This document shows positions 2,541 through 18,625 of a stretch of 23,690 nucleotides of DNA, piece by piece. Under the pieces are notes generated by a model. That model worked only from the letters and a program-made list of their open reading frames with translations, searched no databases and was not told where the DNA came from. The position numbers were made by a program, and so were the translations under genes. Each line of letters starts with the position of its first letter. The stretch's first letter is position 1. The stretch lies in the IMG/VR virus record IMGVR_UViG_3300021964_000544, positions 1 to 23,690 of that record; one strand, written 5' to 3'. Source of the DNA: a virus.

Positions 2541-2777
2541 TTAAATGTTGTTTTTAATCAAAGCCTCTTGAATAGCATCTGTGATGGCATCATTTATGTC
2601 ATCATAGCCAATTAACTCATCTATTTGTTCTCTTGAATTGATAGTTCCAAATGCAAACTTGACATTTGTTGTAAAACTAAAAATTGTAAAATGCCCTCCA
2701 TAAGATAGGCGAGCAATTGTTTCTGCGACTTCCATCATTTTTTCGCTTGGTAGTCTGTTTATTTTGTCTAACTTCAT
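2541..2777 (-). CDS. Small early-region protein of unknown function, preceded by conserved hairpin
   Basis: The gene is read from ATG 2777, giving a 78-residue product beginning MKLDKINRLPSEKMMEV. A TTG at 2786 is in frame but lies inside the conserved leader described below, so it is unlikely to be the start. The sequence suggests an alpha/beta fold (GGHFTIFSFTTNVKFAFG strand region, then a long acidic helix ending IQEALIKNNI). No family recognised. Its leader holds hairpin copy 1 (2789-2817), eleven bases from the ATG, which suggests post-transcriptional control shared with the gene starting at 3273. Confidence 0.6.
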   Translation of the reverse strand: MKLDKINRLPSEKMMEVAETIARLSYGGHFTIFSFTTNVKFAFGTINSREQIDELIGYDDINDAITDAIQEALIKNNI

Positions 2778-2817
2778 ATACCCCAAACGCCCCCCATAAA
2801 CTTAATTATGGTAGGGC
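2778..2817 (-). repeat. Conserved leader hairpin, copy 1 (structured RNA element upstream of ATG 2777)
   Basis: Read on the minus strand, an outer arm GCCCU pairs with GGGGC, one A is bulged, an inner arm CCAUAA pairs with UUAUGG, and the loop is UUAAGU. That makes 11 pairs including one G-U. The hairpin spans 2789-2817 and is followed by GUUUGGGGUAU and then the start codon. Copy 2 lies at 3283-3311. The single stem difference between copies is compensated (A-U here, G-C there). It is GC-rich in an AT-rich genome and lacks a U-tract, so it is not a standard terminator. Confidence 0.75.
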
Positions 2818-2840
2818 TGCTTGCTGGATATGAGAAATAA

Positions 2841-3071
2841 TTATTTTATATCTAAATCAAACTTGGCTTTTTCTGCAATAATTTCCCAAGCACAACGTGC
2901 AATATCGTTTGAACTGTGTTTGATTTTTACGGCCAAAAGATAATCCAAGCTATCCTCTAAACTTTTTTCATGGTTTTCTGCAAATCTTTTTACATCGGCC
3001 ACAAATTCATTAACTAAATACAAATGTCTGTTGACTGCCGTTCTTGCGTTTATTGTTTCTGTTCTATTCAT
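2841..3071 (-). CDS. Small helical protein of unknown function
   Basis: The 76-residue product starts MNRTETINARTAV and appears all-helical (RHLYLVNEFVADVKRFAEN, then SLEDSLDYLLAVKI, then ARCAWEIIAEKAKF). No family is recognised. It starts at ATG 3071, seven bases after the stop of the upstream gene. Hairpin copy 1 begins 23 bases after its stop codon, so this gene lies between the two hairpins. Three genes in this cluster begin with MNR, reflecting a shared sequence around their start codons rather than homologous proteins as far as can be seen. Confidence 0.6.
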   Translation of the reverse strand: MNRTETINARTAVNRHLYLVNEFVADVKRFAENHEKSLEDSLDYLLAVKIKHSSNDIARCAWEIIAEKAKFDLDIK

Positions 3072-3078
3072 ATTTTTT

Positions 3079-3273
3079 TTAATTGTTAATTAAGTAGTTC
3101 AACTTGTTCTCTACTGGTGCCAATGTCTTGGTCGCCTTCACGCACTCTCCGTTTAAAATCACAAAATACAAATTGCGATTAAAACTAACCTCTATTAAAT
3201 CTCCCATGTCATTAGTGAAATCTAAGTCACCATGCATTAACTCTTCTTTTTTTAATTTTACTATTCTATTCAT
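3079..3273 (-). CDS. Small early-region protein of unknown function, preceded by conserved hairpin
   Basis: The start is set at ATG 3273 (MNRIVKLKKEELMHGDLDF), giving 64 residues. Two further in-frame ATGs (3303 and 3291) lie inside hairpin copy 2, and the conserved leader ends exactly at 3273 as it does near 2777, so those upstream ATGs are judged non-functional. The product looks like a small beta domain (IVKLKKEEL, IEVSFNRNLYFVILNG, CVKATKTLAP). No family recognised. Confidence 0.58.
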   Translation of the reverse strand: MNRIVKLKKEELMHGDLDFTNDMGDLIEVSFNRNLYFVILNGECVKATKTLAPVENKLNYLINN

Positions 3274-3311
3274 ACCCCAAACGCCCCCCATGAACTGAAT
3301 CATGGTAGGGC
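3274..3311 (-). repeat. Conserved leader hairpin, copy 2 (structured RNA element upstream of ATG 3273)
   Basis: On the minus strand GCCCU pairs with GGGGC, one A is bulged, CCAUGA pairs with UCAUGG and the loop is UUCAGU. The hairpin spans 3283-3311 and ends nine bases before ATG 3273. Apart from one compensated stem pair and one loop base, the hairpin is identical to copy 1, and the trailing GUUUGGGGUAU is also kept. Confidence 0.75.
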
Positions 3312-3333
3312 TTTTCTGTGGGTTATTGTTTTT

Positions 3334-3522
3334 TTAAATTGCTTTTAAAATGTACGCCACTTGCAAGGCAATGTTTATTTTAAAGTACGGACTTTTAAAG
3401 GTTGCAGAATCTGTACCATATTTTTTCTGTCCTTCGATTCTTAATGATTCAATCATCATTTCTCTTAAATTGATTTTGGCGTGTAAATTTCTCATGTTTT
3501 TTGTGTTTGTTTCTTTAATCAT
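3334..3522 (-). CDS. Small basic protein of unknown function
   Basis: Read from ATG 3522, the product has 62 residues starting MIKETNTKNMRNLHAK. A TTG at 3528 is in frame but overlaps a TATATTTG promoter box. The protein is basic and mostly helical, ending FKINIALQVAYILKAI. No family recognised. A TAnnTTTG box three bases upstream of the ATG suggests this gene may start its own transcript, with little or no 5' leader, which would also carry the two hairpin-led genes downstream. Confidence 0.5.
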   Translation of the reverse strand: MIKETNTKNMRNLHAKINLREMMIESLRIEGQKKYGTDSATFKSPYFKINIALQVAYILKAI

Positions 3523-3525
3523 ACA

Positions 3526-3533
3526 CAAATATA
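3526..3533 (-). promoter_or_regulatory. Bacteroidota-type -7 box (TATATTTG)
   Basis: A perfect TAnnTTTG match lies three bases before ATG 3522. No TTG is seen at the usual -33 spacing, so only the -7 element supports this promoter. Confidence 0.45.
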
Positions 3534-3583
3534 ATATAAATCATGAGATATACCATAAAAGTTAACAAAAAAACTCATTTATT

Positions 3584-7791: not shown

Positions 7792-8044
7792 TTTTTGTTG
7801 TTTGGTTTTTAAAGAAGAATAAAACAATAATCATTACTATCTCCAGTAAGTCTTTTATATTGCCACCAATTAGCCTTTCAAATACTTCCTCGCTGACCTT
7901 GCCTTTTGCGAAGAAATAATTCAGTTGCACCATTTGGTAAATGTTTATGATTAAATAAGTAATGATAAAAACGCTACCAATCCAAGCCATAAATGATAGC
8001 TTGCTGCTGCCATCAATGCCTAAGAATTTAAGTAGTTTTCCCAT
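7784..8044 (-). CDS. Holin-like small membrane protein
   Basis: The 86-residue product has two hydrophobic segments, WIGSVFIITYLIINIYQM (about 21-38) and IKDLLEIVMIIVLFFF (about 64-79), and a charged C-terminus (KNQTTKNE). This size, two-segment topology and position right before the endolysin fit a phage holin that permeabilises the inner membrane. No family signature is certain. Its start overlaps the upstream stop as TAATG, and its end overlaps the endolysin start. Confidence 0.6.
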   Translation of the reverse strand: MGKLLKFLGIDGSSKLSFMAWIGSVFIITYLIINIYQMVQLNYFFAKGKVSEEVFERLIGGNIKDLLEIVMIIVLFFFKNQTTKNE

Positions 8045-17061: not shown

Positions 17062-17250
17062 TTACTTTTTCTTTTTTGAAATTACTTTTTTAACTGGCTT
17101 TTTAGCAACTACCTTTTCAGTTGGTACTTCCTCAGCTACACCAGCAGCAATCAATTCCTTTGCAAGCACTAAATTTAATTCAGCCGTTTGCCCTATTGAA
17201 TAAGCAAGGTTGTAAATACCAGTTGGACTTTTTAAAAATATAACTTTCAT
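17062..17250 (-). CDS. Small phage head-region protein of unknown function
   Basis: The 62-residue product begins KVIFLKSPTGIYNLAYSIGQ and then AKELIAAGVAEEV, a pattern common in small genes between capsid and connector genes of HK97-type phages. The last 17 residues are very Lys-rich (KKPVKKVISKKKK), a possible DNA- or capsid-interaction tail. Function unknown. A likely terminator separates it from the capsid gene. Confidence 0.62.
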   Translation of the reverse strand: MKVIFLKSPTGIYNLAYSIGQTAELNLVLAKELIAAGVAEEVPTEKVVAKKPVKKVISKKKK

Positions 17251-17256
17251 TCACCC

Positions 17257-17288
17257 AAAAACCCCGCACAAAAATCAATTTGGCGAGG
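17257..17288 (-). terminator. Rho-independent-like terminator after the major capsid gene
   Basis: On the minus strand CCUCGC (17288-17283) pairs with GCGGGG (17267-17262) through six pairs including one U-G, followed by UUUUU (17261-17257). The loop is 15 bases. It lies 24 bp after the capsid stop. It may be partial, raising capsid mRNA over downstream genes. Confidence 0.5.
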
Positions 17289-17311
17289 CAATGGGATATG
17301 AATAAGACTAA

Positions 17312-18625
17312 TTATGCGGTCAATGCGTCTTTCATAGCTGCGAATGACTTTGCTCTTTTTACTGCGATATCACAGAAAAGTTCAGTGTGCATTCTAACTC
17401 TTGATTTTCCAGCTTGTGTATATGGATCTGGCAAGATAAATACACCACCAAATTGTCCAACAACTAAGTCAGCAAAGTTACCGAATACAATTGCGTTAGC
17501 ATCACTGCTTGTTCCTTTAGTAAGGTTGCTTGGTACGTTAGAAGAAGTCATGGCATTATATCCATTCATTGTTTCTCCATCCCAAATGTAACCAGAAACA
17601 CCACTTGCTTTCAAAGTTTGCTTCAATGCTCCTTTGATTCCAGCAGTAGTTAAGTAACCTAAATTACCTTCAAGTGCATCGTCAATGTTTACTTCACTTT
17701 CAAGATCAACTATATTTCCCCAAGTTGGTACTGCTCCGTTTGTTCCACCTACTACATCTCCAATACCAGCAGTATTCAAAATACCAGTTGGTTGGCCACC
17801 AGTTCCACTTCCGTTGATAGCAGCAGCATCTAAAGTGCTATTTACTGCAACGATGAATTGGTTGTTTACGTAGTTTTGAATATCAAAAGATGCTTGGCGC
17901 AATAAGGTTCTACTCAAGTCAGCATATCCAGCCATTCTTTTTGGCGTTAATAATACCTCGGCAAATGTTTTGCTTGTTTCAGCAGAATCATCATTTTCTC
18001 CTTCCCAAGTCATAGAAAATAAGTTTGTGTCTTTTGGAAGAGATAAATCTCCAACAAGGTTAGGAAGAACAGTTGCTCCCATTCGGCTTACTATCGGTGC
18101 TGGTGCAAATGGCTCGATTAAATCGCCTTTGTCCGTTTGAATAGTGTAACCACCTTCGCTATCAGTTCCAGCACTTTGTGCACGATTGAACTTTGCGTTC
18201 ATGTTTTGCATTACGATGGTAGGAATACCAAAACCACCAGACTCAGATGATAAACCACTTGCTCGTAGTTCTTTTTCTGCTTCTTGGTGCATTTCTTTTT
18301 CAAATCCTTCAAGTTTACCAGAAATGGCTTGGTTCATGAATCGGATCATTGAGAAATTTTTCTCAATTTCTTTAGACTCATTTTTTGATGTACTTACAGA
18401 ACCAATTGATGCTGAACGTACTGCTTCTTCTTTGTTCTCTTCGTCCATTGTTTCCAATGCACCAATTTCCTTTTTGAATGCAGCAAGTGCAGTTTCAATA
18501 GCCTCAACTAAAGCAATCTCTTGCTCAGTCATTGCTCTGTTTTCAGTTTCCAGAGTTGTGTGCAATGCTTTCAACTCAGCTTTTTTGTCTGCGCATAGTT
18601 CACGCAATTCTTTTAAACGTTTCAT
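17312..18625 (-). CDS. HK97-fold major capsid protein with N-terminal delta domain
   Basis: The 437-residue product has a coiled-coil scaffold-like N-terminus (about residues 1-115: LKELRELCADKKAELKALHT and EIALVEAIETALAAFKKEIG) followed by the HK97 capsid fold (from about residue 150, SEGGYTIQTDKGDLIEPFAP, then LPKDTNLFSMTWEGENDDSA, and near the end GQFGGVFILPDPYTQAGKSR). The neighbouring S78 protease should remove the delta domain during maturation. The start overlaps the protease stop as TAATG, and a terminator-like hairpin follows the gene. Confidence 0.93.
   Translation of the reverse strand: MKRLKELRELCADKKAELKALHTTLETENRAMTEQEIALVEAIETALAAFKKEIGALETMDEENKEEAVRSASIGSVSTSKNESKEIEKNFSMIRFMNQAISGKLEGFEKEMHQEAEKELRASGLSSESGGFGIPTIVMQNMNAKFNRAQSAGTDSEGGYTIQTDKGDLIEPFAPAPIVSRMGATVLPNLVGDLSLPKDTNLFSMTWEGENDDSAETSKTFAEVLLTPKRMAGYADLSRTLLRQASFDIQNYVNNQFIVAVNSTLDAAAINGSGTGGQPTGILNTAGIGDVVGGTNGAVPTWGNIVDLESEVNIDDALEGNLGYLTTAGIKGALKQTLKASGVSGYIWDGETMNGYNAMTSSNVPSNLTKGTSSDANAIVFGNFADLVVGQFGGVFILPDPYTQAGKSRVRMHTELFCDIAVKRAKSFAAMKDALTA

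Follow-up and report, generated by a model that had tools for sequence, protein, structure and literature searches.

A family of bulged-A hairpins at intercistronic gene starts in related phages and its probable part in control of the following gene

The window analyzed here, meaning the whole 23,690-nucleotide stretch of DNA, is a 23.7-kb virus record that encodes terminase, portal, protease, and capsid genes together with a DnaA-C-like protein and an exonuclease-like protein, next to which lies a protein with a match to an uncharacterized family and a weak one to an exonuclease family. A terminase-based search for related phages reached distant phages from other phyla. The homologs of a 78-amino-acid (aa) gene, the AT-rich DNA, and a promoter of the TAnnTTTG type suggest that this is probably a Bacteroidota phage: annotated homologs of that gene occur in Flavobacterium phages only, and TAnnTTTG is the Bacteroidota promoter motif described in the literature. 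The putative promoter is kept in the related locus L122 and lies upstream of an operon of small genes that carries two hairpins (Table 1).

Table 1. Features of the window and positions of the bulged-A hairpin copies
Feature	Position	Strand	Remarks
Putative Bacteroidota-type promoter (TTTTTTTG ... TATATTTG)	3533..3577	-	Motif TAnnTTTG, read by eye
64-aa ORF upstream of element 1	3334..3528	-	Stop codon 60 nt ahead of next start
Element 1	3274..3323	-	Core 3311-3283, bulged A, loop UUCAGU, basal stem
64-aa ORF after element 1, orphan	3079..3273	-	Homolog in L127 76% identical, behind a family hairpin
76-aa ORF, without hairpin in the window	2841..3071	-	L122 ortholog directly behind a family hairpin
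Element 2	2778..2831	-	Core 2817-2789, loop UUAAGU, basal stem
78-aa ORF after element 2	2541..2777	-	Homologs in L122, L118, L127, and elemoA
Third intercistronic hairpin	17251..17305 (within 17247-17314)	-	Between major capsid gene and next gene
Bulged-A copies	window 3310, 2816; L122:6834, 7125; L118:11173, 11826; L127:4035; L133:4764

Both hairpins that an earlier note had placed at 2789-2817 and 3283-3311 on the minus strand are present, and its description of their outer arms (GCCCU/GGGGC), bulged A, 6-bp inner stem, and six-base loop is accurate, as are the start codons 11 nt (2777) and 9 nt (3273) past the stem and the absence of a terminator-grade U-tract behind either hairpin. The inner arms are CCAUAA/UUAUGG in one and CCAUGA/UCAUGG in the other, with loops UUAAGU and UUCAGU, and a shared 39-mer pattern matches the window only at 2778-2816 and 3272-3310, with no match in 100 shuffles. 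The note had read the difference between the arms as one compensated base pair, which is correct but thin evidence when it comes from two copies in one genome; with related phages included, five pairs are changed on both sides. Its hairpin coordinates also stand, but the element is larger, with a basal stem that extends beyond them and joins the nucleotides immediately preceding the start codon to those immediately following the upstream stop codon. In element 1, positions 3323-3320 pair with 3277-3274 and 3318-3315 with 3281-3278, so that the fold stops 1 nt short of the start codon at 3273, and in element 2 a CAUAU/AUAUG pairing can take in the start codon at 2777. With their basal stems, the two elements are predicted to fold at -26 to -29 kcal/mol (z = -4.5 and -5.1). 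A peptide-coding role was rejected, since in-frame ATGs (MIQFMGGVWGMNR) lie in the hairpin of element 1 and none lie in element 2 despite its near-identical core, showing that coding is not conserved.

Related copies were gathered by a 14-mer scan of viral sequences, which gave mostly chance matches, by exact structured pattern scans of IMG/VR, and by reading of contigs. Eight distinct bulged-A copies came from three phage types, together with unbulged relatives; the copies are few and partly related, and the contigs are mostly fragments. The copy at L133:4764 recurs in L134, and the GC-rich L123 was left out of the count. All eight align without gaps across 47 columns, in which GCCC (giving a CCC/GGG clamp), the bulged A, the A-U pair closing the inner stem, the loop UUNRRU, and GGGG are fixed, partly as expected because some of these letters were required by the pattern scans. 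No letters were prescribed for the stem, whose inner part occurs as CCATGA, CCATAA, CTTAGA, GTTAGA, CCTTGA, and GATGGA, each with its complement. Every one of the 80 pair cells (8 copies by ten stem positions) holds a standard pair, G-U pairs among them, and half of the ten positions are altered on both sides with pairing kept. On these ten core pairs, the basal stem being variable among copies, 13 cells showed a double change, compared with a mean of 3.9 in shuffles, and the covariation score was 0.60 versus 0.22 for shuffles and 0.13 or less for slid-partner controls. Without guidance, RNAalifold recovered these ten pairs as well. Since relatedness alone can lift sequences above shuffles even where there is no structure, the weight rests on how many different stems occur. 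The earlier note had made its proposal depend on further copies with compensatory changes, and related phages supply them.

Rfam gave no match to the whole window at gathering scores and none to positions 2760-3345 at E values up to 5, and no description of the hairpin was found in the literature searched, which leaves out most subscription papers; the family of which both window hairpins are members is absent from Rfam. A covariance model (R1) recovered further, more distant relatives but nothing better than E = 0.08 in ten cultured Bacteroidota phages (~550 kb). Scanning the bacterial chromosomes of 84,980 genomes with the exact pattern of the GGGGGGCGUUU subtype returned three GC-rich, non-Bacteroidota matches without such structure. 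Chance duplication of the window hairpins is rejected on the basis of the shuffles, the covariation, and the covariance-model relatives, and a palindromic DNA site for a dimeric protein is disfavored by the G-U pairs and by half-site letters that drift under maintained pairing.

All bulged copies are oriented in the sense direction, in the gap that separates the stop codon of one gene from the following start codon; a second hairpin intervenes before that start in L133 and L134. The seven tight bulged-A copies with their flanks form an irregular hairpin of ~18 to 20 bp with an internal loop, at predicted energies of -19 to -29 kcal/mol (z = -3.6 to -5.8), and their basal stems reach toward the start codon, in the closest cases with GGGGU running straight into AUG. 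As in element 2, the start codon itself can pair at L122:7125. The segment between core and start reads CGUUUGGGGUAU, AAUUUUGGGUAY, or AAUUGUUGGUAU. Folding in longer context kept the core of L118:11173 and L118:11826 and changed or left out pairing at the annotated start, the basal stem being open in the best fold of the former and the annotated ATG lying outside it in the latter. Spacing was measured in seven bulged copies plus the third window hairpin (17250), L127:5284, and L118:143; stop and start are 58 to 64 nt apart in nine of the ten, the exception having 75 nt to ATG and less if an in-frame GTG is used, whereas background gaps of 35 to 110 nt in 15 loci are scattered over the full range. 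Predicted mean unpaired probability over positions -15 to +3 is 0.12 to 0.35 in 8 of 10 copies. Gaps within the window fold strongly only at the two elements and at the hairpin behind the capsid gene, with -0.35 to -0.39 kcal/mol per nt versus -0.05 to -0.18 in other gaps shorter than 330 nt.

Comparison of sites indicates that copies are exchanged between them. The 40-nt core of window 2816 is identical (40/40) to that of L122:6834, which stands ahead of a different gene with unrelated flanks (51%), and matches the copy at its own orthologous site, L122:7125, at only 25 of 40 positions, with flanks there 92% and 78% identical. Recurrence of the L122:7125 arrangement on the separate contig L129 speaks against misassembly. 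Genes have also been gained or lost directly after hairpins: the window and L122 differ in this way by a 64-aa gene, and L133 and L134 by one gene, with breaks at start codons, ATGAATAGA and ATGA. These copies in related phages support the earlier view of a duplicated, exchanged RNA element with structure-keeping changes at the starts of unrelated genes, one that appears to move among genes faster than its flanks diverge. Recombination may be the route. An IS200/IS605 or REP mobile hairpin would be expected to have a Y1 transposase in its element or genome; six records, mostly fragments, had no match to PF01797, an enzyme that could act in trans. Integron-attC and homing explanations were set aside, as no matching part was found.

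Some of the genes behind these hairpins recur as well. In L122 and L118, family hairpins precede homologs of the 78-aa gene; in L127 a terminator-grade relative does so, and Flavobacterium phage elemoA has a distant homolog without the element. The 78-aa orphan family (window, L122, L118, L128, L131, and L132) has invariant GGH and F-x-F motifs, no match in Pfam or PHROG, and an AlphaFold2 model that was uninformative (pLDDT of 52 from five sequences). More distant homologs at L128:7600-7980 and L132:4400-4662 have a promoter and terminator-like hairpins in their leaders, so this small gene seems to have been set repeatedly behind structured leaders. The annotated collection gave no phage homologs of the 64-aa product or of a small membrane protein from L118. 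That membrane protein gene (L118:11880) and one at L133:5648 (minus strand) encode homologous products in two phage types (MEKLINRTRQFF... and MRKLIKITEKFL...), and only the L118 copy stands behind a family hairpin.

Part of this group looks like intrinsic terminators. The third window hairpin is terminator grade, with a GC hairpin, U5, and UGGGUGAAUG, and its basal CCCA/UGGG and UUCA/UGAA pairs form a foot that pairs with the region of the next start codon, in the layout of the two early elements; with an R1 score of only 12 bits, it is a layout relative outside the bulged-A family. L127:5284, in a sister phage, has a perfect 11-bp stem followed by UUUUU and precedes the same gene as the bulged copy L118:11173, so that terminator and nonterminating hairpin may be alternatives at one site, and L118:143, L127:1416, and L118:8799 likewise have unbulged stems with U-tails. 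By the d'Aubenton score, which was set on E. coli terminators and is only a guide here, these four and window 17250 range from +10 to +34, while all eight bulged copies fall between -11 and -35, lacking the combination of a GC-rich stem and an immediate U-tract that marks intrinsic terminators. Because unbulged relatives score as terminators and bulged copies do not, these are probably all terminator-derived hairpins, some of which would no longer terminate. The natural reading is that these terminator-shaped intercistronic hairpins form a single lineage, with the bulge and broken U-tract in part of it, the data being compatible with change in either direction. Among terminator-like hairpins of the loci compared, a UUNRRU-type loop outside the family was seen only in L131, which, with none of the ten cultured phage records giving a better match than that noted above, argues that this is not the ordinary terminator of Bacteroidota phages. 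A possible sister family occurs in L133, on the minus strand near 7942, 7561, 7196, and 4675: a conserved [UG]AGGU[AG]GUA box lies between each of these intercistronic hairpins and the following gene, and two of them share an upstream ACUUAAA able to pair with UUUAGGU.

Shine-Dalgarno pairing is rare in Bacteroidota, and start regions free of structure are thought to be required there. A hairpin that is conserved, passed between sites, and located precisely at the start region is unexpected for such hosts; it probably controls whether the next gene is read and would offer a natural way into how translation is set by these hosts and their phages. The reading we tentatively favor, at somewhat short of even chances, is a cis-acting intercistronic RNA element of ~60 nt that by default represses independent initiation of the next gene. 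mRNA past the upstream stop codon would fold into a terminator-shaped hairpin whose foot extends as far as the next start codon or includes part of it. Both window copies are of the bulged-A form, which has a broken U-tract and should therefore let transcription through. With the initiation region still paired, independent initiation would be strongly repressed, and little of the downstream small gene's product would be made unless the foot were opened, whether through cleavage, a trans-acting factor, or a ribosome that terminates on the upstream gene; copies would be exchanged among sites by recombination. From the fold, compensatory changes, position, spacing, and exchange that can be read in these sequences, we infer the repression and its relief.

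Published data on start-region structure bear on this proposal. In Prevotella, a structure of -11 kcal/mol at the start region lowers protein to ~1%, while a structure at -21 is not inhibitory (PMC3155529), and initiation in F. johnsoniae is likewise tuned by start-region structure (PMC6847099). With the hairpin foot at the start codon, independent initiation should therefore be repressed, and the Prevotella results make default translational repression the likeliest effect; ribosome-access control, which the earlier note had put forward, fits the position of the hairpin. The stop codon lies directly before the foot, which makes a ribosome finishing the upstream gene an attractive means of relief. 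Coupling by reinitiation normally fails past ~20 nt, however (PMC10666635), and masking the stop codon plus 10 nt in silico freed the start region only modestly. Against a plain lock on the start codon, the conserved bulged A and UUNRRU would not be required, and they hint at a specific partner. The variable basal stem, the two L118 copies in which pairing at the annotated start is changed or left out, and the extra hairpin of L133 and L134 also count against it.

Such a partner is the basis of a rather unlikely alternative, in which the hairpin is an operator for a specific phage or host RNA-binding protein that reads the bulged A and UUNRRU and governs a small posttranscriptional regulon. 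Copies stand ahead of several different genes, and fixed bulge, clamp, and loop letters amid stem letters that drift while paired are the usual signature of a recognized hairpin. However, a candidate protein was not identified, an unbulged terminator-grade relative precedes the same gene (L127:5284 versus L118:11173), and loops of a loosely similar kind occur in AT-rich terminators from other Bacteroidota phages. It is unlikely that the element is instead a transcriptional attenuator, an intergenic intrinsic terminator that lowers downstream transcription and sits near the start only through genome compaction. This would account for the same-layout relatives with perfect or near-perfect stems, U4-U5 tails, and positive scores, and for a layout like that of terminators after capsid genes, such as T-phi of T7, but the score is negative for every bulged copy, also for the two of the window, which lie inside an operon leading to recombination and replication genes, and a pure terminator needs neither a fixed distance to the start nor a conserved bulge.

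A bolder reading, and quite an improbable one, treats the ~61-nt stop-hairpin-start unit as an exchangeable cassette that would couple genes across the foot, the ribosome crossing the looped-out stem and a factor reading the bulged A and UUNRRU, to make a portable coupling module for hosts without Shine-Dalgarno use. We consider it highly unlikely that the hairpin is looped out within a split initiation region, joining the A-rich stretch after the stop to the start codon and aiding initiation or reinitiation, as the T4 mechanism is not directly transferable to Bacteroidota, which rarely use Shine-Dalgarno pairing. The foot adjoining the start codon, the A-rich single-stranded stretch directly after the stop, the near-constant spacing, and the precedent of T4 genes 25 and 38 (PMC3014915) speak for it, but basal pairing covers -1 to -12 too and start structure in Prevotella is strongly inhibitory (PMC3155529). 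If the hairpin acts as either a lock or a coupler, it would be a candidate part for gene control in Bacteroidota. An RNase III-type processing site separating the messages of neighboring genes is an equally faint prospect, since RNase III sites show little sequence conservation and clamp, bulge, and loop letters are fixed here, even though an irregular, always intercistronic hairpin of this length with an internal loop resembles the intercistronic sites of T7.

The element can be set beside several known systems. Like intrinsic terminators, it has a GC-rich hairpin with an A-rich 5' side and unbulged relatives with U4-U5 tails, but the bulged copies differ in their conserved unpaired A, broken U-tract, negative score, and constant spacing to the start. 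Operators of PP7- and MS2-type RNA phages have a bulged A in a stem near the start codon and, in PP7, a hexaloop; the earlier analogy to coat-protein operators is possible but unsupported, as only the bulged A and hexaloop are shared and no binding protein was identified, and the element belongs to a DNA phage, with another loop and bulge position and no coat-protein link shown. At the T4 split sites of genes 25 and 38, a hairpin likewise separates the loading site from the AUG that it immediately precedes, but there it enhances initiation via a Shine-Dalgarno sequence upstream of the hairpin, which the hosts here rarely use. The extended start-associated sequence (ESAS) of cluster K mycobacteriophages is a repeated element with an inverted repeat just upstream of the starts of nonhomologous, nonstructural genes; its arm differences do not support RNA pairing, and it has been proposed as a DNA-binding site (PMC3203893). 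Both elements are repeated at the starts of nonhomologous genes and present or absent at orthologous ones; arm changes here, in contrast, keep pairing and include G-U pairs, and the 13-bp Shine-Dalgarno-like SAS, GGGATAGGAGCCC, is absent between core and start. T4 also has inhibitory start-region helices in genes e, soc, 49, and I-TevI, which cut lysozyme synthesis ~100-fold (PMC3014915), and the element is predicted to resemble them as a phage mRNA helix burying a start region. The T4 structures are gene specific, gene e being relieved via a late promoter inside its hairpin, whereas one hairpin family is common to unrelated genes here and no internal promoter was seen. The element probably works like the T4 inhibitory helices and is distributed like ESAS, as a demonstrated member of neither.
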